Shown: positions 1-11,462 of the stretch, in pieces
How positions within the stretch are numbered: position 1 is the stretch's first letter
Layout: each line of letters begins with the position of its first letter
Assembly (NCBI GenBank): GCA_025997655.1
Contig: BNUW01000080.1
Span: 1 to 11,462, forward strand
Direction: 5' to 3'
From: Spirochaetia bacterium
Lineage (GTDB): Bacteria > Spirochaetota > Spirochaetia > Treponematales > Breznakiellaceae
DNA: 11,462 nt
Notes under the pieces: generated by a model
Databases searched by the model: none
What the model was told of the DNA's origin: nothing
What the model saw: the letters and a program-made list of their open reading frames with translations, nothing else
Made by a program: the position numbers and the translations under genes

Positions 1-9
1 ACATAGACT

Positions 10-59
10 AAAAAAGAAAACCGCCCGGATGAAGAATCACCCGAGCGGTTTTCTTTTCT
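10..59 (-). terminator. Intrinsic terminator, left-arm copy
   Basis: This is the mirror of the terminator at 11404-11453. On the minus strand, GAAAACCGC and GCGGTTTTC flank a GC-rich inner stem that closes over a six-base loop, and the 3' side runs into T residues. It follows immediately after the stop codon of the 79-residue gene. The A-run on the opposite flank means it could also stop transcription coming the other way. Confidence 0.88.
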
Positions 60-299
60 CTATGCCATTCGAGCTTTTATAAGCTCCGGAAGAAACACCC
101 CCTCTGCTTCCCCAAGCTGCCGAGCCAAATAGGTTTCCCCGCCCCCTGTCCGAGCCAGAGCGGACAACATCGGTAAAGAAACATCGTCAATTTTACCGTC
201 AATGAAAGTTCCCTTATGGGTAAATTGCACCCTTATCTTGTTTATCAGATTCCGGCACGTCATCTTTTCAAGGTCAATATCCCAATTATTGACAATCAT
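60..299 (-). CDS. Hypothetical 79-aa protein after the capsid gene (left-arm copy)
   Basis: The protein is identical to that of 11164-11403. It is a small soluble-looking protein beginning MIVNNWDIDLEKMTC, with no membrane segment and no motif I recognise. It starts 3 bases after the capsid stop, with a GGAGG Shine-Dalgarno overlapping the capsid 3' end, and it ends directly at the terminator. It is thus the last gene of the head transcript. This copy is probably a duplicate created by the palindrome and not a second locus. Confidence 0.75.
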   Translation of the reverse strand: MIVNNWDIDLEKMTCRNLINKIRVQFTHKGTFIDGKIDDVSLPMLSALARTGGGETYLARQLGEAEGVFLPELIKARMA

Positions 300-302
300 A
301 CC

Positions 303-1628
303 CTATCCTCCCGCAGCTTTCGTTTTCAGAACGATAATATTATTTTCCGGTCGGGTAACCAGAAACCCATCACGCTTGCGAAACCTTAGAAAAAGTTCCC
401 CATATTCCAAACTTTCCGTAGTCTGATCAAACTTCTTGATCTCGATTCCTTTCCGGTTGCCATGCTGAATCCGTTTAGGATTCATAAAAATCGCAAACGG
501 CGTATCAGCCCCAATATCCGCCATTTGAGGAAGGATACCCACCTCATGATAGGGGTACAAGTCCAGTTTCCCCGGCATAGCCTCCATAGGCCGCCGCCAA
601 ATAGGACGCCCCGTTGTATCCTCAATGTTCGCCACATGGTTAAGCACCGTTTCATTCAGGAACCACGCACAATCCTTGCGCTCCTCCGCAGGAATTTTAT
701 ACACCGCATCCCGAAAGTCTTTCCAGGATAGATCATTGACCGTTGCCCCCGCAATAGAAACCTTCACCGTCCCCGCCGCTTCCATAGCCCCGGTAAAGGG
801 ATCATCATCGGCCAGCAAACATTGACGGTCAAACTCTTGCCCATACACTTCTGTAAACTCATCCATGAACATAGCCCCCAGGTCAACGAAAATGTCCTCC
901 TCAAATTCGTCATACCACGGAATATACCCCGCCAAGGTGTACGCTTTCAGTTCAACACGTTCCGCCCCCCTGGGCTTGGAACCGGTAATCTGCTGCCCAT
1001 AAGCCGTAAGCCAATGAAGCTGCACCCCGCCCCGGTCCCTGGTGGGAAGCATAATAGACGGCCCCATCATCGGCCTATTCCGCACCAATCCCATCATTAC
1101 CGATTTTTTAGCGGCATCCTGCATAATCTCCGTTTCATAAATCGGATTGATAAGATACTGTTCATTCGTTGCCAAATTTCCCATCGGCGAACCGAGCGCT
1201 GCCTTTTCCGCCACCCCTGATAGTTTCCAGCCCTTATCACTCCATGAAACATCATGGGGATTCGTCCAGTTCTCCGCTTTCAAGTTCGGCGTAAAGTTCA
1301 GTTCCGCCAGGGCGCCATGATTGCCCCCCCACGCCGCCGCCAACGCCTTACCCAGCCGGTAGCAGAGTTCCCGCCGCGACAACTCTCGGGGATTCGCCGC
1401 CTGTCCCTTGATGCCGTCCCGCAGTTCCTTGACCGTTTGTTTCAACGCTTCGGTTTCCGCCGCCTGATCCCCGGTAACCGTTTCCAGAACCTTAACAATA
1501 TCCTCAAGAATTTGTTCCTTCTCCTTGAAGTATTGTTCCGCTTTCGCCGGATCACTAAACCCGGCTTTTTCGATAGTAGTCATAGCGGCAAGTTTCGCCT
1601 TTACCGCCTTGATCAACTCATTTTCCAT
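303..1628 (-). CDS. HK97-fold phage major capsid protein (left-arm copy)
   Basis: The 441-residue product is identical to that of 9835-11160. It is the HK97-type major capsid protein (phage capsid family) that builds the icosahedral shell. The first ~100 residues are charged and helical with coiled-coil character, as expected of a delta (scaffolding) domain removed during maturation. The shell domain follows from about residue 145 and runs to the C-terminus. It starts with ATG behind an AGGAG Shine-Dalgarno that overlaps the end of the prohead protease gene. Its presence on the minus strand reflects the palindrome and need not mean a second capsid gene. Confidence 0.92.
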   Translation of the reverse strand: MENELIKAVKAKLAAMTTIEKAGFSDPAKAEQYFKEKEQILEDIVKVLETVTGDQAAETEALKQTVKELRDGIKGQAANPRELSRRELCYRLGKALAAAWGGNHGALAELNFTPNLKAENWTNPHDVSWSDKGWKLSGVAEKAALGSPMGNLATNEQYLINPIYETEIMQDAAKKSVMMGLVRNRPMMGPSIMLPTRDRGGVQLHWLTAYGQQITGSKPRGAERVELKAYTLAGYIPWYDEFEEDIFVDLGAMFMDEFTEVYGQEFDRQCLLADDDPFTGAMEAAGTVKVSIAGATVNDLSWKDFRDAVYKIPAEERKDCAWFLNETVLNHVANIEDTTGRPIWRRPMEAMPGKLDLYPYHEVGILPQMADIGADTPFAIFMNPKRIQHGNRKGIEIKKFDQTTESLEYGELFLRFRKRDGFLVTRPENNIIVLKTKAAGG

Positions 1629-1631
1629 AGT

Positions 1632-2330
1632 TCACTCCTGATTTCGGACCGCTGGTCCGCTCTGTATGATGTTTCCCCAAAAATCAGGAAAACCCGCCGC
1701 CTGCTTCGATTCCGTTACCGTCTTTGCCATGGCAAACGGATTTGCCGGAACATTACAAATACTGAATTCCAAAAGCTCCTGTTTTCTGAAAATCAACGCC
1801 GTTCCATCCTTGCCCGGACCCATGTCCGCATCCTCCTTTGAAGGAAGCTCTATCTCCAAAATTCTGAATCCCACCGACCCCGCCCTTAGTACCCCCGCTT
1901 TCACTCGTTCCCCAATACCCCAGCCAAAGGGATCATAGTCCTTGCTATTAAAAACGATATTCCCATGCAGCCCCTTGTCATCGGCGAACACTTTTTCTGC
2001 CCTGCCTATCGCTGGAATCGAATAACAATGTGCCCATTGAATGACCGGATTTTCCAGGTATCGCTTGAAATCCCACCCCGCCGGATCAACCCGCTCATCG
2101 TATCGGTCCAAATCAAAAGTAGAGAAGATCCACGGCACCCCCTGATCCGTTTCCCCCTGTTCAGTTGCAAGACAAAACGGAACCGATGCAATACACTCCA
2201 TATCAAGCCCATCCTTGACCGTTTTAACGCCACCCTCCGTTCCATACATACCCAATTCCCCCCGCAGAAATTCCATCAGAACCGCCCGGCTCTGTACCTG
2301 GAATTCGCCGCTTTTACACCGTATCAACAT
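1632..2330 (-). CDS. HK97-family prohead protease (left-arm copy)
   Basis: The 232-residue product is identical to that of 9133-9831. Family features are a FSTFDLDRYDERV segment (69-81), candidate catalytic His101 in a WAH motif, candidate nucleophile Ser152 in GSVGF, and a LEFSICNVPANPFA segment (187-200). It processes the capsid delta domain during head maturation. I chose the ATG with a GAGGGGG Shine-Dalgarno. A longer in-frame start would begin at 2375 but lies inside the preceding regulator gene and lacks such a site. Confidence 0.88.
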   Translation of the reverse strand: MLIRCKSGEFQVQSRAVLMEFLRGELGMYGTEGGVKTVKDGLDMECIASVPFCLATEQGETDQGVPWIFSTFDLDRYDERVDPAGWDFKRYLENPVIQWAHCYSIPAIGRAEKVFADDKGLHGNIVFNSKDYDPFGWGIGERVKAGVLRAGSVGFRILEIELPSKEDADMGPGKDGTALIFRKQELLEFSICNVPANPFAMAKTVTESKQAAGFPDFWGNIIQSGPAVRNQE

Positions 2331-2340
2331 AGAAGCCCCC

Positions 2341-3000
2341 TCATACAACACATACCTCCGCCCGACGTATCTCACCCAATAAAAAACATTGCCGGTTAAG
2401 TTCCAAACAATTTTCTACACCGTAATTCGCAAAAAGCGCCTTCTTGTGTATTTCCACCGTTTTAATACTCACCCCTAAAATATTCGCTATCTCCTTGCCC
2501 TTCTTGGCGGCCCAGATTAAACGCTTAACATCCTCCTGCCGCGCCGTCGAATCTATCCGCAATTCCGGTGTATCATCGGACAAGTTATCGTATGCCTCCA
2601 GAATATTGCCGGAAGTATACTCTTGATTAAGCAGCACCCGGTTAATACCCCGCCGGAATTTACTCACCCCAAAACTCAAATCAATAACACTCCGCGCGCC
2701 AAACCGCAGAAAATCCACCAACCGTTCCGGTTGAAAAGAATTGATATTACAAACCGTAATATTCAATTCAGGCCGGTCCCGCAGTAAAAGCCCAACCCGG
2801 CGCGGCGTTGAATCCAAATAGAAATTAGCGTCAATAATGATAAGCTTCGGGCTTAACGCGCTTATCAGCCGGTTCAACGCCTTACCCTCATCACCGGTAG
2901 TCATTATCTGCCGCAGCCCTAACCGTTTCAGAAGGAAAATACCTAAGAGATTAAGACTTTTCGAACGGCATACCAGCAGCACCGGACTAAGAAACTTCAT
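2341..3000 (-). CDS. LuxR-type response-regulator-like protein (left-arm copy)
   Basis: The 219-residue product is identical to that of 8463-9122. It has an N-terminal receiver-like alpha/beta domain (about 5-130) with a candidate phosphoacceptor Asp57, and a C-terminal LuxR/FixJ helix-turn-helix (about 155-212). The usual N-terminal acidic pair of receiver domains and the conserved Lys are not visible. It overlaps the portal gene by 14 bases, so it belongs to the same late transcript. See the right-arm entry for detail. Confidence 0.8.
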   Translation of the reverse strand: MKFLSPVLLVCRSKSLNLLGIFLLKRLGLRQIMTTGDEGKALNRLISALSPKLIIIDANFYLDSTPRRVGLLLRDRPELNITVCNINSFQPERLVDFLRFGARSVIDLSFGVSKFRRGINRVLLNQEYTSGNILEAYDNLSDDTPELRIDSTARQEDVKRLIWAAKKGKEIANILGVSIKTVEIHKKALFANYGVENCLELNRQCFLLGEIRRAEVCVV

Positions 3001-4228
3001 CGGCGCCGCCCTTGCCCGTTGTAGGCATCATATTCTTAGGCCGGTACCACACATCCCCCCAGGGCTTTGTATCCTTCCCCCGTTCCCGCAGCACATCGTT
3101 GATAGTTTTCAAACCCGCATTAATTTCCGCAATATCCCTGCCGCTCTGTTCATCTTCGCTTTTCTGTAGTTCCGGTATATCCTGCAAATTGAATACCCCG
3201 GTTTCCCGCAGCCCGAACCGCACAAAGAATTGACTTTCCAAAATACTTTCAAACTGCCGCAGAAGCGGAACCAGGGTATACTTCCAAAAAGCGGCGTGTT
3301 GCTCCCCGGTATCCTTCCCGGAAAGCGAAGTAGTCTTATCAGCGATATTGGCAACCCTCGGCGGAATCCCGTACTTGGCAAGGATGGTATAGACATTCCA
3401 CCGTTTGAGTTCAAATAGTTTGACCACTTCCGGCGTAAATGAAAGCGGTTCAAAACTGGTCCCTTTCCCCAGCACCGCAATCTTCCTGTTGGCCCGAACC
3501 GCCCCGTATTTACTCTCCCACCGCCGCTCTAAAGCGTCCGCTTCCTCCGGCCTGATAGCCTGGTCAGTTTTGAGTATCCCCATCGGTACGGCATTATGTT
3601 TTAGTAATTGTGAATTAGCTTTATTAGCGTAGAAATCCTGTTCCAGTTCAAGCGCCTGCGCAACAAGCGGATTTATCCCCCGGTCCGGGTTCCATGGATT
3701 CCAATCTTTAAAATGAATCAGCTCATCTTGAAGAAGGGGAATAACTTCAAAATCGGTTTGATAAAACCAGCGGCGTGTATTATTTTGTTTTAAGCCACGA
3801 GAATCAATCCTGTCCTCACATCGCATCCTCCGGGGGTCCAGAATGATAATCTCATCCGGAATCCCGCCCGAATAGTTCGACCCAAAGTACCAAAAGGCTT
3901 CACCCTCTAAGAACCACCACCCCGCAGTTTCCTTCCACAGATCGTAGCGGCTCAAACCCTTATTTGGCCTTCGAAAGAGTTCAAAAAGCGGCCCCGAATT
4001 AACTTCGTTTCCACATCTCTCCACAATAAAATCAGCCCGCGCAATATTACGGATTAGAATCGTGACCGCAATATTTACCCAGGCGTTGAAAAGGTAACTA
4101 TCCCCACCGTGGGGGCCTACATTCATTGTAGTACATGTATCATCAAAAAAATCCATTTCTTCAAAACTTTCCACCTTTTTTTCCTTTTGATGATGATATT
4201 TGGTGATAAATTGGGTAAAAAGGTTCAT
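2987..4228 (-). CDS. HK97-type phage portal protein (left-arm copy)
   Basis: The 413-residue product is identical to that of 7235-8476. It is the portal, the dodecameric ring at the special capsid vertex through which DNA is packaged and to which the terminase docks. Family signals are the DELIHFKDWNP..RGINPL region (168-188), NSQLLKHNAVPMGIL (205-219) and the C-terminal AEINAGLKTINDVLRERG region (367-384). It overlaps the large terminase stop as ATGA. This is the mirrored duplicate. Confidence 0.92.
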   Translation of the reverse strand: MNLFTQFITKYHHQKEKKVESFEEMDFFDDTCTTMNVGPHGGDSYLFNAWVNIAVTILIRNIARADFIVERCGNEVNSGPLFELFRRPNKGLSRYDLWKETAGWWFLEGEAFWYFGSNYSGGIPDEIIILDPRRMRCEDRIDSRGLKQNNTRRWFYQTDFEVIPLLQDELIHFKDWNPWNPDRGINPLVAQALELEQDFYANKANSQLLKHNAVPMGILKTDQAIRPEEADALERRWESKYGAVRANRKIAVLGKGTSFEPLSFTPEVVKLFELKRWNVYTILAKYGIPPRVANIADKTTSLSGKDTGEQHAAFWKYTLVPLLRQFESILESQFFVRFGLRETGVFNLQDIPELQKSEDEQSGRDIAEINAGLKTINDVLRERGKDTKPWGDVWYRPKNMMPTTGKGGADEVS

Positions 4229-5448
4229 TGCGCGATAACCCCCCGTTGAATATCAGAGAAAATCGCGTACCGCAGGGCATCCAGGAAATGATCATTAACC
4301 TTAATAATCTCCCCGCCCTCATCCCGGCAGTAGTCCCACACCTCTGACAGTATACCGGTACAGCCAGCAGCGACATAAAACTGCCCCCGCTCTATCTTGG
4401 CATTGATAAAATCAATCCCGCTTTCAACACTATTATTCGCCTTAACCCCCCCGGTAATTTCCTGTAACCGTTCACCACCCGCAGGGTCACAGTACACCGG
4501 GAACCCGAACCCATCAGGCTCAATAGCGAACCACCCCCGCGCCGTCAATTCATCATTGAAAGATTTCGTAGTCATGTTGAAAGCGCCATAATCGGCAATC
4601 ACATAAATGCACTCACCCACCCAGCCAATCTTGACATTGGTTATGTTCAACCCAAAGTCCTGCCCGGCAGCAATCCGATCATATTCGGCTGGCATATCCG
4701 CTGAATTCAAAATCATGGCCTCATCGAATTGCTCATAGATAACGCCATCCGCTTTCACCCACAACCCATCACGGAACCGCGCCTTTTGTTTCTCCGGCAT
4801 AGCGTCCAGAACATCACTGATATAATCATCCGCCAAATGCTCTTTATTATCCGCAGGGTTTAACATCATCGAGGTGTATAACTCCGGCTTTATCAATGCC
4901 GCCCCGGTTAGAAATTGTTTTTTCCGGATAAAAATAGTATGCGCCCAATGTAAGGGACTCCCCGGATTACAGTCATACAGAAACAAATTCCGGCACCCCG
5001 GCGTCCGCATAGCTAACCGTGAATACGCCGTAGTCACCGCCAGATAGCTTAACTGTGATATTTCATTAAAGTAAATCGTATTGTACTCATGTCCCAAAAT
5101 CTTATCCGCCTGTTCTCTATCCCCCAGCCCGCCTATCCAAATCTCACTACCGTTAAAAAGGGTAATCATACTTTCATGGGTCAGATAGCGGAATCCATTA
5201 CTCCCAACCGTATTCATAAGCGCCGGTAATAATGTTTCCCGCAGTACCGAACTCCGTGCATCCTTGGCGCGCAACCGGCAAATCAAATGCCGTGACCCCG
5301 CAAACCGGATAGCCCGGAACACCATAACCATAACCAGCACCGTAGTCTTCCCCGACCGTGACCCCCCGAACAGCAAAATATGTTTCGCGCCGCCCTTCAC
5401 TAAGCGCAGCGCCAGCTTTTGTACCTCAGTCGGCTTAAACAACGTCAC
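4225..5448 (-). CDS. Phage terminase large subunit (left-arm copy)
   Basis: The product is identical to that of 6015-7238: a two-domain packaging motor with a Walker A ATPase site (GGSRSGKT), a Walker B segment (IYFNE), a DCNPGSP coupling-type motif, and a C-terminal RNase H-like nuclease with candidate acidic residues Asp264, Asp321 and Asp390. The GTG start is preferred because GAGGGG lies upstream at suitable spacing. The longer TTG start (mirror end 5463) lies within the small terminase 3' end. This is the mirrored duplicate. Confidence 0.92.
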   Translation of the reverse strand: MTLFKPTEVQKLALRLVKGGAKHILLFGGSRSGKTTVLVMVMVFRAIRFAGSRHLICRLRAKDARSSVLRETLLPALMNTVGSNGFRYLTHESMITLFNGSEIWIGGLGDREQADKILGHEYNTIYFNEISQLSYLAVTTAYSRLAMRTPGCRNLFLYDCNPGSPLHWAHTIFIRKKQFLTGAALIKPELYTSMMLNPADNKEHLADDYISDVLDAMPEKQKARFRDGLWVKADGVIYEQFDEAMILNSADMPAEYDRIAAGQDFGLNITNVKIGWVGECIYVIADYGAFNMTTKSFNDELTARGWFAIEPDGFGFPVYCDPAGGERLQEITGGVKANNSVESGIDFINAKIERGQFYVAAGCTGILSEVWDYCRDEGGEIIKVNDHFLDALRYAIFSDIQRGVIAQ

Positions 5449-5449
5449 C

Positions 5450-5610
5450 CTACAACCCCTCAAATTCAGAAATGAAATTTATTTGCCCGGTTTTATCTAC
5501 CGAACCTTCCGTTTTGCTATTTCCGTCCACCACACCCAGAAGTTCCCGGTTTAACCGAATCGCCGTAGTCACCCACACCGGCAATGTAGCCTGCCCCAAA
5601 TCCGCCGGGT
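5450..5610 (-). pseudogene. 3' fragment of small terminase gene (left-arm copy)
   Basis: This minus-strand segment encodes only the last 53 residues of the small terminase (from Asp82 to the stop), identical to 5853-6013. Upstream of 5610 the minus strand enters the reverse complement of the unique loop, which does not encode terminase residues in this frame. There is no start codon with a Shine-Dalgarno, so nothing functional is encoded here. The fragment is a direct consequence of the palindrome and helps to identify 5610/5611 as the aberrant join. Confidence 0.8.
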
Positions 5611-6013
5611 GGTGGAAAGTTGGCAGCAAGCAGCCTTGGTCAAGGATGAAACGAAGCGGGGACGGCAGTACCGGTTGTGGCGGGGGTGGTCTGCGGCGTT
5701 TAAGTGGCGGGAACGGGCGGCGGATTTTGACGGGTATGTGGATAAGCTGAAACAGGCGGAGGTGCGGAGGACTATCGAGGAACAGGGGACGGTGGACCGG
5801 GCGGGGTTGGCGAAGATGGTAGGGGTGGTCGGTAAGAAGTTGGATTGTATGGACCCGGCGGATTTGGGGCAGGCTACATTGCCGGTGTGGGTGACTACGG
5901 CGATTCGGTTAAACCGGGAACTTCTGGGTGTGGTGGACGGAAATAGCAAAACGGAAGGTTCGGTAGATAAAACCGGGCAAATAAATTTCATTTCTGAATT
6001 TGAGGGGTTGTAG
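5609..6013 (+). CDS. Phage terminase small subunit, 5' end missing
   Basis: Small terminases bind the packaging start site and hand the DNA to the large subunit. The 134-residue open frame carries a LWRGWSAAFKWRERAADFD segment (23-41), which resembles the W..W.ERA..yD region following the N-terminal helix-turn-helix in phage small terminase-like proteins. A charged helical middle and a short acidic C-terminus ending in FEGL follow. It lies one base upstream of the large terminase, the canonical position. The apparent GTG start is not real: its first two bases belong to the left arm and it has no Shine-Dalgarno. The DNA-binding N-terminus, probably several tens of residues, is lost at the junction. 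Assignment rests on position plus the ERA motif. Confidence 0.72.
   Translation: MVESWQQAALVKDETKRGRQYRLWRGWSAAFKWRERAADFDGYVDKLKQAEVRRTIEEQGTVDRAGLAKMVGVVGKKLDCMDPADLGQATLPVWVTTAIRLNRELLGVVDGNSKTEGSVDKTGQINFISEFEGL
5611..5852. other. Unique 242-base loop between the palindrome arms
   Basis: This is the only sequence in the window present once. It lies entirely within the small terminase gene, covering residues 2-81 of the 134-residue open frame, and reads naturally into the right arm. The left boundary (5610/5611) shows no such continuity. To its left lies the antisense of the small terminase C-terminal region, so this is where the rearrangement or misassembly sits. A fold-back event in which a strand switches template and copies back along the duplex would produce this shape: two long arms around a short unpaired spacer. 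Confidence 0.9.
6002..6007 (+). promoter_or_regulatory. Shine-Dalgarno deciding the terL start
   Basis: GAGGGG lies 7 bases upstream of GTG at 6015, inside the last codons of the small terminase gene. The alternative TTG at 6000 overlaps this site and has no Shine-Dalgarno at a sensible distance, so GTG is preferred. The mirrored copy is at 5456-5461. Confidence 0.65.
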
Positions 6014-6014
6014 G

Positions 6015-7238
6015 GTGACGTTGTTTAAGCCGACTGAGGTACAAAAGCTGGCGCTGCGCTTAGTGAAGGGCGGCGCGAAACATATTTTGCTGTTCGGGGG
6101 GTCACGGTCGGGGAAGACTACGGTGCTGGTTATGGTTATGGTGTTCCGGGCTATCCGGTTTGCGGGGTCACGGCATTTGATTTGCCGGTTGCGCGCCAAG
6201 GATGCACGGAGTTCGGTACTGCGGGAAACATTATTACCGGCGCTTATGAATACGGTTGGGAGTAATGGATTCCGCTATCTGACCCATGAAAGTATGATTA
6301 CCCTTTTTAACGGTAGTGAGATTTGGATAGGCGGGCTGGGGGATAGAGAACAGGCGGATAAGATTTTGGGACATGAGTACAATACGATTTACTTTAATGA
6401 AATATCACAGTTAAGCTATCTGGCGGTGACTACGGCGTATTCACGGTTAGCTATGCGGACGCCGGGGTGCCGGAATTTGTTTCTGTATGACTGTAATCCG
6501 GGGAGTCCCTTACATTGGGCGCATACTATTTTTATCCGGAAAAAACAATTTCTAACCGGGGCGGCATTGATAAAGCCGGAGTTATACACCTCGATGATGT
6601 TAAACCCTGCGGATAATAAAGAGCATTTGGCGGATGATTATATCAGTGATGTTCTGGACGCTATGCCGGAGAAACAAAAGGCGCGGTTCCGTGATGGGTT
6701 GTGGGTGAAAGCGGATGGCGTTATCTATGAGCAATTCGATGAGGCCATGATTTTGAATTCAGCGGATATGCCAGCCGAATATGATCGGATTGCTGCCGGG
6801 CAGGACTTTGGGTTGAACATAACCAATGTCAAGATTGGCTGGGTGGGTGAGTGCATTTATGTGATTGCCGATTATGGCGCTTTCAACATGACTACGAAAT
6901 CTTTCAATGATGAATTGACGGCGCGGGGGTGGTTCGCTATTGAGCCTGATGGGTTCGGGTTCCCGGTGTACTGTGACCCTGCGGGTGGTGAACGGTTACA
7001 GGAAATTACCGGGGGGGTTAAGGCGAATAATAGTGTTGAAAGCGGGATTGATTTTATCAATGCCAAGATAGAGCGGGGGCAGTTTTATGTCGCTGCTGGC
7101 TGTACCGGTATACTGTCAGAGGTGTGGGACTACTGCCGGGATGAGGGCGGGGAGATTATTAAGGTTAATGATCATTTCCTGGATGCCCTGCGGTACGCGA
7201 TTTTCTCTGATATTCAACGGGGGGTTATCGCGCAATGA
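6015..7238 (+). CDS. terL: Phage terminase large subunit
   Basis: This is the ATPase and nuclease that cuts concatemeric phage DNA and drives it through the portal. Numbering from the GTG start, the 407-residue protein shows Walker A GGSRSGKT (28-35), Walker B IYFNE (125-129) with the catalytic Glu, and DCNPGSP (159-165), matching the coupling motif after Walker B. The C-terminal nuclease half has AGQDFG with Asp264, VYCDPAG with Asp321, and NDHFLDALRYA with Asp390, which are the three acidic positions of the RNase H-like fold. Length and motif order fit the PBSX/Terminase_3 type. The start is one base after the small terminase stop. The longer TTG start at 6000 would add five residues. The 3' end overlaps the portal start as ATGA. 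Confidence 0.95.
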   Translation: MTLFKPTEVQKLALRLVKGGAKHILLFGGSRSGKTTVLVMVMVFRAIRFAGSRHLICRLRAKDARSSVLRETLLPALMNTVGSNGFRYLTHESMITLFNGSEIWIGGLGDREQADKILGHEYNTIYFNEISQLSYLAVTTAYSRLAMRTPGCRNLFLYDCNPGSPLHWAHTIFIRKKQFLTGAALIKPELYTSMMLNPADNKEHLADDYISDVLDAMPEKQKARFRDGLWVKADGVIYEQFDEAMILNSADMPAEYDRIAAGQDFGLNITNVKIGWVGECIYVIADYGAFNMTTKSFNDELTARGWFAIEPDGFGFPVYCDPAGGERLQEITGGVKANNSVESGIDFINAKIERGQFYVAAGCTGILSEVWDYCRDEGGEIIKVNDHFLDALRYAIFSDIQRGVIAQ

Positions 7239-8476
7239 ACCTTTTTACCCAATTTATCACCAAATATCATCATCAAAAGGAAAAAAAGGTGGAAAGTTTT
7301 GAAGAAATGGATTTTTTTGATGATACATGTACTACAATGAATGTAGGCCCCCACGGTGGGGATAGTTACCTTTTCAACGCCTGGGTAAATATTGCGGTCA
7401 CGATTCTAATCCGTAATATTGCGCGGGCTGATTTTATTGTGGAGAGATGTGGAAACGAAGTTAATTCGGGGCCGCTTTTTGAACTCTTTCGAAGGCCAAA
7501 TAAGGGTTTGAGCCGCTACGATCTGTGGAAGGAAACTGCGGGGTGGTGGTTCTTAGAGGGTGAAGCCTTTTGGTACTTTGGGTCGAACTATTCGGGCGGG
7601 ATTCCGGATGAGATTATCATTCTGGACCCCCGGAGGATGCGATGTGAGGACAGGATTGATTCTCGTGGCTTAAAACAAAATAATACACGCCGCTGGTTTT
7701 ATCAAACCGATTTTGAAGTTATTCCCCTTCTTCAAGATGAGCTGATTCATTTTAAAGATTGGAATCCATGGAACCCGGACCGGGGGATAAATCCGCTTGT
7801 TGCGCAGGCGCTTGAACTGGAACAGGATTTCTACGCTAATAAAGCTAATTCACAATTACTAAAACATAATGCCGTACCGATGGGGATACTCAAAACTGAC
7901 CAGGCTATCAGGCCGGAGGAAGCGGACGCTTTAGAGCGGCGGTGGGAGAGTAAATACGGGGCGGTTCGGGCCAACAGGAAGATTGCGGTGCTGGGGAAAG
8001 GGACCAGTTTTGAACCGCTTTCATTTACGCCGGAAGTGGTCAAACTATTTGAACTCAAACGGTGGAATGTCTATACCATCCTTGCCAAGTACGGGATTCC
8101 GCCGAGGGTTGCCAATATCGCTGATAAGACTACTTCGCTTTCCGGGAAGGATACCGGGGAGCAACACGCCGCTTTTTGGAAGTATACCCTGGTTCCGCTT
8201 CTGCGGCAGTTTGAAAGTATTTTGGAAAGTCAATTCTTTGTGCGGTTCGGGCTGCGGGAAACCGGGGTATTCAATTTGCAGGATATACCGGAACTACAGA
8301 AAAGCGAAGATGAACAGAGCGGCAGGGATATTGCGGAAATTAATGCGGGTTTGAAAACTATCAACGATGTGCTGCGGGAACGGGGGAAGGATACAAAGCC
8401 CTGGGGGGATGTGTGGTACCGGCCTAAGAATATGATGCCTACAACGGGCAAGGGCGGCGCCGATGAAGTTTCTTAG
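7235..8476 (+). CDS. HK97-type phage portal protein
   Basis: The portal forms the ring at one capsid vertex that serves as DNA entry channel, terminase dock and later head-tail connector site. The 413 residues are typical of the HK97 portal family. Recognisable parts are the N-terminal wing with YDLWKETAGWWFLEGEAFWY (95-114), the LQDELIHFKDWNP..RGINPL region (166-188), NSQLLKHNAVPMGIL (205-219), FTPEVVKLFELKRW (264-277) followed by YGIPPRV (286-292), and a C-terminal AEINAGLKTINDVLRERG segment (367-384). The first ~30 residues are polar and Lys/Asp-rich. The ATG overlaps the terL stop (ATGA), so translation is probably coupled. A run of seven A's near codon 16 is a place to check for sequencing error, but the frame is intact. 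Confidence 0.95.
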   Translation: MNLFTQFITKYHHQKEKKVESFEEMDFFDDTCTTMNVGPHGGDSYLFNAWVNIAVTILIRNIARADFIVERCGNEVNSGPLFELFRRPNKGLSRYDLWKETAGWWFLEGEAFWYFGSNYSGGIPDEIIILDPRRMRCEDRIDSRGLKQNNTRRWFYQTDFEVIPLLQDELIHFKDWNPWNPDRGINPLVAQALELEQDFYANKANSQLLKHNAVPMGILKTDQAIRPEEADALERRWESKYGAVRANRKIAVLGKGTSFEPLSFTPEVVKLFELKRWNVYTILAKYGIPPRVANIADKTTSLSGKDTGEQHAAFWKYTLVPLLRQFESILESQFFVRFGLRETGVFNLQDIPELQKSEDEQSGRDIAEINAGLKTINDVLRERGKDTKPWGDVWYRPKNMMPTTGKGGADEVS

Positions 8477-9122
8477 TCCGGTGCTGCTGGTATGCCGTTC
8501 GAAAAGTCTTAATCTCTTAGGTATTTTCCTTCTGAAACGGTTAGGGCTGCGGCAGATAATGACTACCGGTGATGAGGGTAAGGCGTTGAACCGGCTGATA
8601 AGCGCGTTAAGCCCGAAGCTTATCATTATTGACGCTAATTTCTATTTGGATTCAACGCCGCGCCGGGTTGGGCTTTTACTGCGGGACCGGCCTGAATTGA
8701 ATATTACGGTTTGTAATATCAATTCTTTTCAACCGGAACGGTTGGTGGATTTTCTGCGGTTTGGCGCGCGGAGTGTTATTGATTTGAGTTTTGGGGTGAG
8801 TAAATTCCGGCGGGGTATTAACCGGGTGCTGCTTAATCAAGAGTATACTTCCGGCAATATTCTGGAGGCATACGATAACTTGTCCGATGATACACCGGAA
8901 TTGCGGATAGATTCGACGGCGCGGCAGGAGGATGTTAAGCGTTTAATCTGGGCCGCCAAGAAGGGCAAGGAGATAGCGAATATTTTAGGGGTGAGTATTA
9001 AAACGGTGGAAATACACAAGAAGGCGCTTTTTGCGAATTACGGTGTAGAAAATTGTTTGGAACTTAACCGGCAATGTTTTTTATTGGGTGAGATACGTCG
9101 GGCGGAGGTATGTGTTGTATGA
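8463..9122 (+). CDS. LuxR-type response-regulator-like protein in the head operon
   Basis: The C-terminal part (about 155-212) matches the LuxR/FixJ DNA-binding domain: KGKEIANILGVSIKTVEIHK (167-186) is the helix-turn-helix, and NYGVENCLELNR continues it. The N-terminal ~130 residues look like a receiver domain: hydrophobic VLLVC at strand 1, LIIIDANFY with Asp57 at the phosphoacceptor position, and FLRFGARSVIDL where receivers have a GA.gyl.K segment. The acidic pair after strand 1 and the late conserved Lys are missing, so phosphorylation is doubtful and it may be a pseudo-receiver. It overlaps the portal gene by 14 bases and ends at the protease Shine-Dalgarno, so it is co-expressed with structural genes. 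The role is unknown. A late-gene regulator or a modifier of host transcription are possible inferences. Confidence 0.82.
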   Translation: MKFLSPVLLVCRSKSLNLLGIFLLKRLGLRQIMTTGDEGKALNRLISALSPKLIIIDANFYLDSTPRRVGLLLRDRPELNITVCNINSFQPERLVDFLRFGARSVIDLSFGVSKFRRGINRVLLNQEYTSGNILEAYDNLSDDTPELRIDSTARQEDVKRLIWAAKKGKEIANILGVSIKTVEIHKKALFANYGVENCLELNRQCFLLGEIRRAEVCVV

Positions 9123-9127
9123 GGGGG
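9121..9127 (+). promoter_or_regulatory. Shine-Dalgarno deciding the prohead protease start
   Basis: GAGGGGG sits 5 bases before ATG at 9133 and overlaps the TGA of the regulator gene (9120-9122), an arrangement suited to reinitiation. The in-frame ATG at 9088 lies deep inside the regulator gene without a comparable site. The mirrored copy is at 2336-2342. Confidence 0.7.
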
Positions 9128-9132
9128 CTTCT

Positions 9133-9831
9133 ATGTTGATACGGTGTAAAAGCGGCGAATTCCAGGTACAGAGCCGGGCGGTTCTGATGGAATTTCTGCG
9201 GGGGGAATTGGGTATGTATGGAACGGAGGGTGGCGTTAAAACGGTCAAGGATGGGCTTGATATGGAGTGTATTGCATCGGTTCCGTTTTGTCTTGCAACT
9301 GAACAGGGGGAAACGGATCAGGGGGTGCCGTGGATCTTCTCTACTTTTGATTTGGACCGATACGATGAGCGGGTTGATCCGGCGGGGTGGGATTTCAAGC
9401 GATACCTGGAAAATCCGGTCATTCAATGGGCACATTGTTATTCGATTCCAGCGATAGGCAGGGCAGAAAAAGTGTTCGCCGATGACAAGGGGCTGCATGG
9501 GAATATCGTTTTTAATAGCAAGGACTATGATCCCTTTGGCTGGGGTATTGGGGAACGAGTGAAAGCGGGGGTACTAAGGGCGGGGTCGGTGGGATTCAGA
9601 ATTTTGGAGATAGAGCTTCCTTCAAAGGAGGATGCGGACATGGGTCCGGGCAAGGATGGAACGGCGTTGATTTTCAGAAAACAGGAGCTTTTGGAATTCA
9701 GTATTTGTAATGTTCCGGCAAATCCGTTTGCCATGGCAAAGACGGTAACGGAATCGAAGCAGGCGGCGGGTTTTCCTGATTTTTGGGGAAACATCATACA
9801 GAGCGGACCAGCGGTCCGAAATCAGGAGTGA
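9133..9831 (+). CDS. HK97-family prohead protease
   Basis: This serine protease (HK97 prohead protease / U35 type) is co-assembled in the prohead, where it trims the capsid delta domain and then itself. The 232-residue protein shows FSTFDLDRYDERV (69-81), NPVIQWAH with candidate catalytic His101 followed by IPAIG, LRAGSVGF with candidate nucleophile Ser152, and ELLEFSICNVPANPFA (185-200), which is the family's LE.S....PANP.A motif. The tail after ~205 is low in features and may be self-cleaved. It sits directly before the capsid gene, as is usual. A start at 9088 would add 15 residues (247 total) but is poorly supported. The closing TGA overlaps the capsid Shine-Dalgarno (aggagtga). Confidence 0.92.
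   Translation: MLIRCKSGEFQVQSRAVLMEFLRGELGMYGTEGGVKTVKDGLDMECIASVPFCLATEQGETDQGVPWIFSTFDLDRYDERVDPAGWDFKRYLENPVIQWAHCYSIPAIGRAEKVFADDKGLHGNIVFNSKDYDPFGWGIGERVKAGVLRAGSVGFRILEIELPSKEDADMGPGKDGTALIFRKQELLEFSICNVPANPFAMAKTVTESKQAAGFPDFWGNIIQSGPAVRNQE
9804..9818 (+). promoter_or_regulatory. Short hairpin just before the capsid ribosome-binding site
   Basis: CGGACC (9804-9809) and GGTCCG (9813-9818) form a perfect six-base-pair stem over the three-base loop AGC. It ends 5 bases before the AGGAG of the capsid gene and lies in the last codons of the protease gene. It has no T-run, so it is not a terminator. It could influence mRNA processing or capsid translation, but a stem this short can arise by chance. 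The mirrored copy is at 1645-1659. Confidence 0.3.
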
Positions 9832-9834
9832 ACT

Positions 9835-11160
9835 ATGGAAAATGAGTTGATCAAGGCGGTAAAGGCGAAACTTGCCGCTATGACTACTATCGAAAAAGCC
9901 GGGTTTAGTGATCCGGCGAAAGCGGAACAATACTTCAAGGAGAAGGAACAAATTCTTGAGGATATTGTTAAGGTTCTGGAAACGGTTACCGGGGATCAGG
10001 CGGCGGAAACCGAAGCGTTGAAACAAACGGTCAAGGAACTGCGGGACGGCATCAAGGGACAGGCGGCGAATCCCCGAGAGTTGTCGCGGCGGGAACTCTG
10101 CTACCGGCTGGGTAAGGCGTTGGCGGCGGCGTGGGGGGGCAATCATGGCGCCCTGGCGGAACTGAACTTTACGCCGAACTTGAAAGCGGAGAACTGGACG
10201 AATCCCCATGATGTTTCATGGAGTGATAAGGGCTGGAAACTATCAGGGGTGGCGGAAAAGGCAGCGCTCGGTTCGCCGATGGGAAATTTGGCAACGAATG
10301 AACAGTATCTTATCAATCCGATTTATGAAACGGAGATTATGCAGGATGCCGCTAAAAAATCGGTAATGATGGGATTGGTGCGGAATAGGCCGATGATGGG
10401 GCCGTCTATTATGCTTCCCACCAGGGACCGGGGCGGGGTGCAGCTTCATTGGCTTACGGCTTATGGGCAGCAGATTACCGGTTCCAAGCCCAGGGGGGCG
10501 GAACGTGTTGAACTGAAAGCGTACACCTTGGCGGGGTATATTCCGTGGTATGACGAATTTGAGGAGGACATTTTCGTTGACCTGGGGGCTATGTTCATGG
10601 ATGAGTTTACAGAAGTGTATGGGCAAGAGTTTGACCGTCAATGTTTGCTGGCCGATGATGATCCCTTTACCGGGGCTATGGAAGCGGCGGGGACGGTGAA
10701 GGTTTCTATTGCGGGGGCAACGGTCAATGATCTATCCTGGAAAGACTTTCGGGATGCGGTGTATAAAATTCCTGCGGAGGAGCGCAAGGATTGTGCGTGG
10801 TTCCTGAATGAAACGGTGCTTAACCATGTGGCGAACATTGAGGATACAACGGGGCGTCCTATTTGGCGGCGGCCTATGGAGGCTATGCCGGGGAAACTGG
10901 ACTTGTACCCCTATCATGAGGTGGGTATCCTTCCTCAAATGGCGGATATTGGGGCTGATACGCCGTTTGCGATTTTTATGAATCCTAAACGGATTCAGCA
11001 TGGCAACCGGAAAGGAATCGAGATCAAGAAGTTTGATCAGACTACGGAAAGTTTGGAATATGGGGAACTTTTTCTAAGGTTTCGCAAGCGTGATGGGTTT
11101 CTGGTTACCCGACCGGAAAATAATATTATCGTTCTGAAAACGAAAGCTGCGGGAGGATAG
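9835..11160 (+). CDS. HK97-fold phage major capsid protein
   Basis: This is the main shell protein, 441 residues. Residues 1-75 are highly charged and helical, with many Lys/Glu and heptad-like spacing. This fits a built-in delta domain acting as scaffold, since no separate scaffold gene is present. A linker (about 76-145) leads to the N-arm and shell domain beginning around GSPMGNLATNEQYLINPIYE (146-165). The E-loop and P-domain are less distinct, but PWYDEFEEDIFVDLGAMFMD falls where the spine helix lies, and the C-terminus GFLVTRPENNIIVLK is typical of the fold. Cleavage by the upstream protease within the linker is inferred. ATG follows an AGGAG site with 6-base spacing, 3 bases after the protease stop. 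Confidence 0.93.
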   Translation: MENELIKAVKAKLAAMTTIEKAGFSDPAKAEQYFKEKEQILEDIVKVLETVTGDQAAETEALKQTVKELRDGIKGQAANPRELSRRELCYRLGKALAAAWGGNHGALAELNFTPNLKAENWTNPHDVSWSDKGWKLSGVAEKAALGSPMGNLATNEQYLINPIYETEIMQDAAKKSVMMGLVRNRPMMGPSIMLPTRDRGGVQLHWLTAYGQQITGSKPRGAERVELKAYTLAGYIPWYDEFEEDIFVDLGAMFMDEFTEVYGQEFDRQCLLADDDPFTGAMEAAGTVKVSIAGATVNDLSWKDFRDAVYKIPAEERKDCAWFLNETVLNHVANIEDTTGRPIWRRPMEAMPGKLDLYPYHEVGILPQMADIGADTPFAIFMNPKRIQHGNRKGIEIKKFDQTTESLEYGELFLRFRKRDGFLVTRPENNIIVLKTKAAGG

Positions 11161-11163
11161 GGT

Positions 11164-11403
11164 ATGATTGTCAATAATTGGGATATTGACCTTGAAAAGA
11201 TGACGTGCCGGAATCTGATAAACAAGATAAGGGTGCAATTTACCCATAAGGGAACTTTCATTGACGGTAAAATTGACGATGTTTCTTTACCGATGTTGTC
11301 CGCTCTGGCTCGGACAGGGGGCGGGGAAACCTATTTGGCTCGGCAGCTTGGGGAAGCAGAGGGGGTGTTTCTTCCGGAGCTTATAAAAGCTCGAATGGCA
11401 TAG
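11164..11403 (+). CDS. Hypothetical 79-aa protein after the capsid gene
   Basis: I do not recognise this family. The protein is mixed charged and soluble-looking, with no signal peptide, membrane segment or cysteine cluster (a single Cys near residue 15). It begins MIVNNWDIDLEKMTC and ends VFLPELIKARMA, with a GGG at about 52-54. The start is well supported: GGAGG at 11152-11156 lies 7 bases upstream, and only 3 bases separate it from the capsid stop. Its position, last in the head transcript and directly before a terminator, suggests a virion or head-completion accessory. It is shorter than typical head-tail connectors, so that remains a guess. Confidence 0.75.
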   Translation: MIVNNWDIDLEKMTCRNLINKIRVQFTHKGTFIDGKIDDVSLPMLSALARTGGGETYLARQLGEAEGVFLPELIKARMA

Positions 11404-11453
11404 AGAAAAGAAAACCGCTCGGGTGATTCTTCATCCGGGCGGTTTTCTTTTTT
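11404..11453 (+). terminator. Strong intrinsic terminator ending the head operon
   Basis: The stem is 11410-11425 paired with 11432-11447. GAAAACCGC/GCGGTTTTC are perfect, and the inner TCGGGTG/CATCCGG pairs include two G-U wobbles. The loop is ATTCTT. A-rich and T-rich flanks (11404-11409 and 11448-11453) extend the pairing and supply the T-run. It begins directly after the stop codon of the 79-residue gene. The A-run on the other side would let it act in both directions. Outside it, CATAGA (11399-11404) and TCTATG (11456-11461) can also pair. Confidence 0.9.
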
Positions 11454-11462
11454 AGTCTATGT

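Follow-up and report, generated by a model that had tools for sequence, protein, structure and literature searches.

The palindromic contig

Contig BNUW01000080.1 (C80), the whole stretch of 11,462 nucleotides analysed here and referred to as the window, carries phage head genes in two mirrored arms. This raises the question whether such an arrangement exists in the spirochete or arose while its DNA was amplified and assembled. The source assembly comprises 2.74 Mb in 402 contigs and is 69.7% complete. On self-complement comparison, positions 1–5610 and 5853–11462 were reverse complements at 5610 of 5610 bases without a mismatch, separated by a single-copy loop of 242 bases (5611–5852). The palindrome of 2 × 5,610 bases proposed in an earlier sequence-only reading is thus exact, and it fills the contig end to end. 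A chance origin of a perfect palindrome of 5610 bases is ruled out. The same reading held that all genes of the head module occur twice, which is correct for the genes of the arms. It is not so for the small terminase, whose frame (5609–6013) spans the right join, with just the final ~53 codons falling inside the arms. As judged from the assembled sequence, the palindrome is almost certainly an artefact of a fold-back chimera formed by multiple displacement amplification (MDA) and of assembly, and absent from the organism. As part of this explanation, and with equal confidence, the real sequence is 5611–11462.

Table 1. Features of the window (positions of the 11,462-nucleotide contig).
Feature	Position	Strand	Evidence
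Left arm, false second copy	1..5610	-	exact self-complement of 5853-11462; single in relatives
8-base overlap CGCCGGGT at the fold-back join 5610/5611	5603..5610	+	common to the natural upstream of L103; similarity ends beyond
Loop, natural single-copy sequence within the small-terminase gene	5611..5852	+	collinear with L103
ACCCGGCG, inverted copy of the overlap, start of the fold-back	5853..5860	+	sequence; L103 has ACCCGGCT there
Right arm, natural sequence	5853..11462	+	with the loop, 89% collinear match to L103
Small terminase, 134 aa, natural beginning missing	5609..6013	+	phrog_6299, E 1.2e-5; L103 counterpart 182 aa
Large terminase, 412 aa	6000..7238	+	Terminase_6N, phrog_2
Portal, 413 aa	7235..8476	+	PF04860, E 9.8e-57
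NarL/LuxR-like protein, 219 aa, receiver-like domain and helix-turn-helix	8463..9122	+	GerE; PDB response regulators; model
Head maturation protease	9088..9831	+	Peptidase_S78, phrog_80
Major capsid protein, 441 aa	9835..11160	+	Phage_capsid, phrog_10
79-aa protein, no family match	11164..11403	+	also in L103 and L134
Putative terminator-like inverted repeat	11406..11451	+	strand self-match, 83% over 46 bases

The arm ends 11 bases past the terminator-like repeat. Megablast of 5611–11462 against INPHARED phages gave no match, nor did a search of IMG/VR with a 35-base pattern from the loop.

The head module in relatives

In locus L103 (BNUX01000049.1, Spirochaetia bacterium MS499-42, of the same genus), the stretch 5611–11462 occurs once and collinearly, matching at 89% over 5852 bases. 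Locus L134 (BNUY01000140.1) matches positions 783–5849 of this stretch in a single direction. The complete genomes G003 and G032 each hold two copies of this core gene order, always in one direction. Since the stretch is single and collinear in L103 and one-directional in L134, and its core order is kept in G003 and G032, it is natural. The real DNA beneath the contig is one copy of the head-gene module of an integrated phage-like element in a termite-gut spirochete.

Different sequence had been expected to the left of 5611, and this is what L103 has at the equivalent position: genes for an integrase and a helix-turn-helix protein, and the first part of the small-terminase gene, which begins farther upstream there than in the window (182 versus 134 aa). 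The upstream and downstream flanks of L103 were sought in the window's assembly and none was found outside the window, an absence that fits patchy amplification. As these natural flanks are missing from the rest of the assembly, the correct join is not demonstrable in the same genome.

These comparisons bear on a real head-to-head inverted dimer, that is, a linear replicon or replication intermediate with its two copies joined inside the small terminase. Although a perfect palindrome and the presence of a second, near-perfect one in the assembly (C100, see later section) favour such a molecule, its join would cost both copies the start of the small terminase, and the examined relatives hold the module once, in contigs without an inverted repeat. 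As to a linear replicon with long inverted terminal repeats, the gene set of the window is incomplete: the small terminase is cut, and the integrase and other upstream genes of L103 are absent.

The join at 5610/5611

Join 5852/5853 lies inside the small-terminase gene, with a match to L103 on both sides, and is natural. Across join 5610/5611 the match to L103 runs for 8 more bases (CGCCGGGT) and is followed by 29% ungapped identity over 300 bases; none of 985 15-mers from the upstream of L103 occurred in the window. A distance of 242 bases separates the overlap from its inverted copy (5853–5860), and a random join would show eight matching bases with a chance of ~1.5e-5. In a second relative, L152, the base adjoining the join differs and would not give the 8-base overlap. 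Because of this difference, and because the eight bases assume an upstream sequence like that of L103, we infer rather than observe the exact overlap in this genome.

In MDA data from the human genome, chimera overlaps are described as peaking at 7 nt, with more than 95% at 3–13 nt, and the preferred distance between segments as 80–280 nt (PMC5372508). According to another report, inversion with a deletion in between accounts for more than 85% of MDA chimeras (PMC1855051), and palindromic reads from MDA have also been reported (PMC13265396). An overlap of 8 bases at a distance of 242 bases would fit these published chimeras. The window resembles MDA fold-back chimeras, as these sources describe them, in its inverted segments, short complementary overlap and deletion of a few hundred bases (PMC1855051, PMC5372508, PMC13265396). 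It differs in that here a whole 11.5 kb contig is involved and the outer ends stop at an identical base, for which an assembler is needed too. With the overlap and distance at the join typical of MDA chimeras, the inverted dimer is scarcely credible.

The MDA fold-back most likely proceeded as follows. A 3′ end copied from the head operon and displaced while the genome was being amplified would anneal through about 8 complementary bases to the opposite strand, 242 bases away. Extended backwards on that strand, the annealed end would link 5611 to the reverse complement of the sequence starting at 5853. The assembler would then see the loop tied to the same arm on both sides, in opposite directions, and would write arm, loop, arm. 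This path, which appears to be the one taken, would be why both arms terminate on the same base.

Identical outer ends are likewise expected from a path read twice, and hence from a pure assembler error in which the graph was mistakenly traversed in both directions and no chimeric molecule existed. However, the 8-base overlap is far below any k-mer used (21–127 in the siblings' study), so that molecules truly crossing the join are needed, and the single-copy loop suits a fold-back. An error of the assembler by itself is therefore very improbable. An assembler path taken both ways and an MDA fold-back had been offered as alternatives; the two together fit the MDA-like join, the repeat scars at contig ends (see below) and the arm read outward twice.

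Amplification and inverted repeats elsewhere in the assembly

Judging by the sibling records, the assembly is probably a single-cell MDA genome. The sibling accessions lie alphabetically within BNTM–BOCE, the range of an MDA study, and the window's genome probably belongs to the same series. For the BNTM–BOCE termite single-cell genomes, the study describes MDA and assembly with SPAdes -sc at k 21–127; with its microcapsule method, ~6% of reads were reportedly chimeric in E. coli and 8% in a mock community (PMC9579161).

Inverted repeats at contig ends, defined as at least 60 bases at 95% identity or more, were found in 18 of the 93 other contigs of the same assembly (17 of 93 if one single palindrome at a contig end is excluded). 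No such repeat was present in 134 controls, drawn from two bins (18 and 20 contigs), from other bins (26 whole contigs) and from IMG/VR (70 whole contigs), of which at most 131 are distinct. Contigs of the named sibling single-cell series also had none (0/12; 6 whole, 6 partial), a sample too small to decide. In 16 of the 18 cases the repeat was 126 bases or shorter. These sizes fit breakage of contigs at k = 127, the upper limit given in the siblings' study (PMC9579161). Contig C100 (L186, 1–9177) is a near-whole palindrome with arms of 4472 bases, one mismatch and a loop of 233 bases. Both it and C80 resemble mobile-element DNA, and a real high-copy form could underlie them. C100 is AT-rich and carries a frame that, judged by eye, is integrase-like. 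Contig pairs of equal size (C69/C70, C75/C76 and C79/C80) were considered as duplicates and rejected, as they have no common sequence.

When a genome has been amplified, a contig that is a perfect palindrome may be mistaken for a complete virus bearing inverted terminal repeats. An assembly-wide count of inverted repeats anchored at contig ends offers a simple check.

The cassette and its NarL-like gene

It is the cassette, rather than the palindrome, that merits follow-up. It consists of an integrase, a helix-turn-helix gene, small and large terminase, portal, NarL-like protein, protease and capsid. A set of 134 loci was left after removal of four known duplicates. Portal and protease were both visible in 113 of these, with the NarL-like gene between them in 102. 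The 11 loci of the 113 without it come from bins of other Treponema and Spirochaetales, including water-buffalo and horse samples. An integrase match was found within the fetched stretch in 62 of the 94 loci having large terminase, portal, protease and capsid. The cassette of integrase and head genes is widespread.

A NarL-like protein with receiver and helix-turn-helix inside a head operon is unusual, as regulators are placed. The profile of the family matches whole response regulators in the PDB, for example VraR (E 2.2e-23), and the predicted model shows a receiver-like domain and a helix-turn-helix (mean pLDDT 91.6). In the alignment, judged by eye, the usual phosphate-accepting aspartate seems not to be conserved.

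Beyond the capsid gene, the first predicted frame of at least 100 aa lies on the opposite strand in 36 of the 52 loci that extend 2 kb or more past the gene. Among the post-capsid examples scanned were a DUF7222 protein and another whose DnaJ-domain match fell below the cut-off. At ten outgroup loci (L130–L156) the genes after the capsid stay on the same strand; one of them in L147 is a head-tail adaptor (phrog_442).

Resemblance to satellites with their own heads

No tail genes were recognised beside the cassette in a scan that covered part of the neighbouring genes. In the five genomes searched, PF04860 (portal) was confined to these cassettes and PF05135 was found in none. PF10145 matched in G002 alone and not in G000, G003 or G032, and PF04984 gave matches below the cut-off in G001 and G002 and none in G000, G003 or G032. 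On contig 26 of G002 the PF10145 and PF04984 matches lie ~2 kb apart, in a tail-like cluster away from the cassette. TIGR01760 had one match in G032, distant from both cassettes, and none in G003, and PF05709 was without a match in either genome. L103 (7557–15344) and loci L200–L203 have a compact cassette with no tail genes recognised beside it, a possible satellite.

Direct repeats marking the element ends were searched for at 11 loci, giving three 13-base matches, none convincing. tRNA genes were found at 6 of 18 loci scanned and did not consistently adjoin the integrase. Helicase and methyltransferase genes lie farther on and may belong to the element.

Like capsid-forming phage-inducible chromosomal islands (cf-PICIs) as described in PMC10803314, the cassette has an integrase, an excisionase-like gene and its own packaging and head genes, with no adjoining tail genes recognised in the part scanned; the integrase together with own head and packaging genes is present in L103 and in the complete genomes. 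It differs from the cf-PICIs of that account in a core with no recognised replication gene and in the NarL-like gene within the head operon, and the hosts named there are other groups, not spirochetes (PMC10803314). A true member would also be induced and mobilised by a helper phage. As the element ends were not found and the farther helicase and methyltransferase genes may belong to it, membership of the cf-PICIs is not claimed.

The cassette is reminiscent of a satellite equipped with heads of its own. That it represents a satellite family widespread in termite-gut spirochetes, with own heads, borrowed phage tails and a two-component-type regulator in the head operon, is a tentative proposal, and rather doubtful at present. 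Among literature titles and the openings of abstracts, that of the termite metavirome paper PMC5759034 included, no description of such elements in spirochetes was found. The cassette offers a starting point in the search for possible spirochete satellites.

Relatives of the large terminase were also seen at L122, L148 and L150, in bins labelled Fibrobacteria, Syntrophomonadaceae and Dysgonamonadaceae. Their placement could be attributed either to transfer between phyla or to binning errors.
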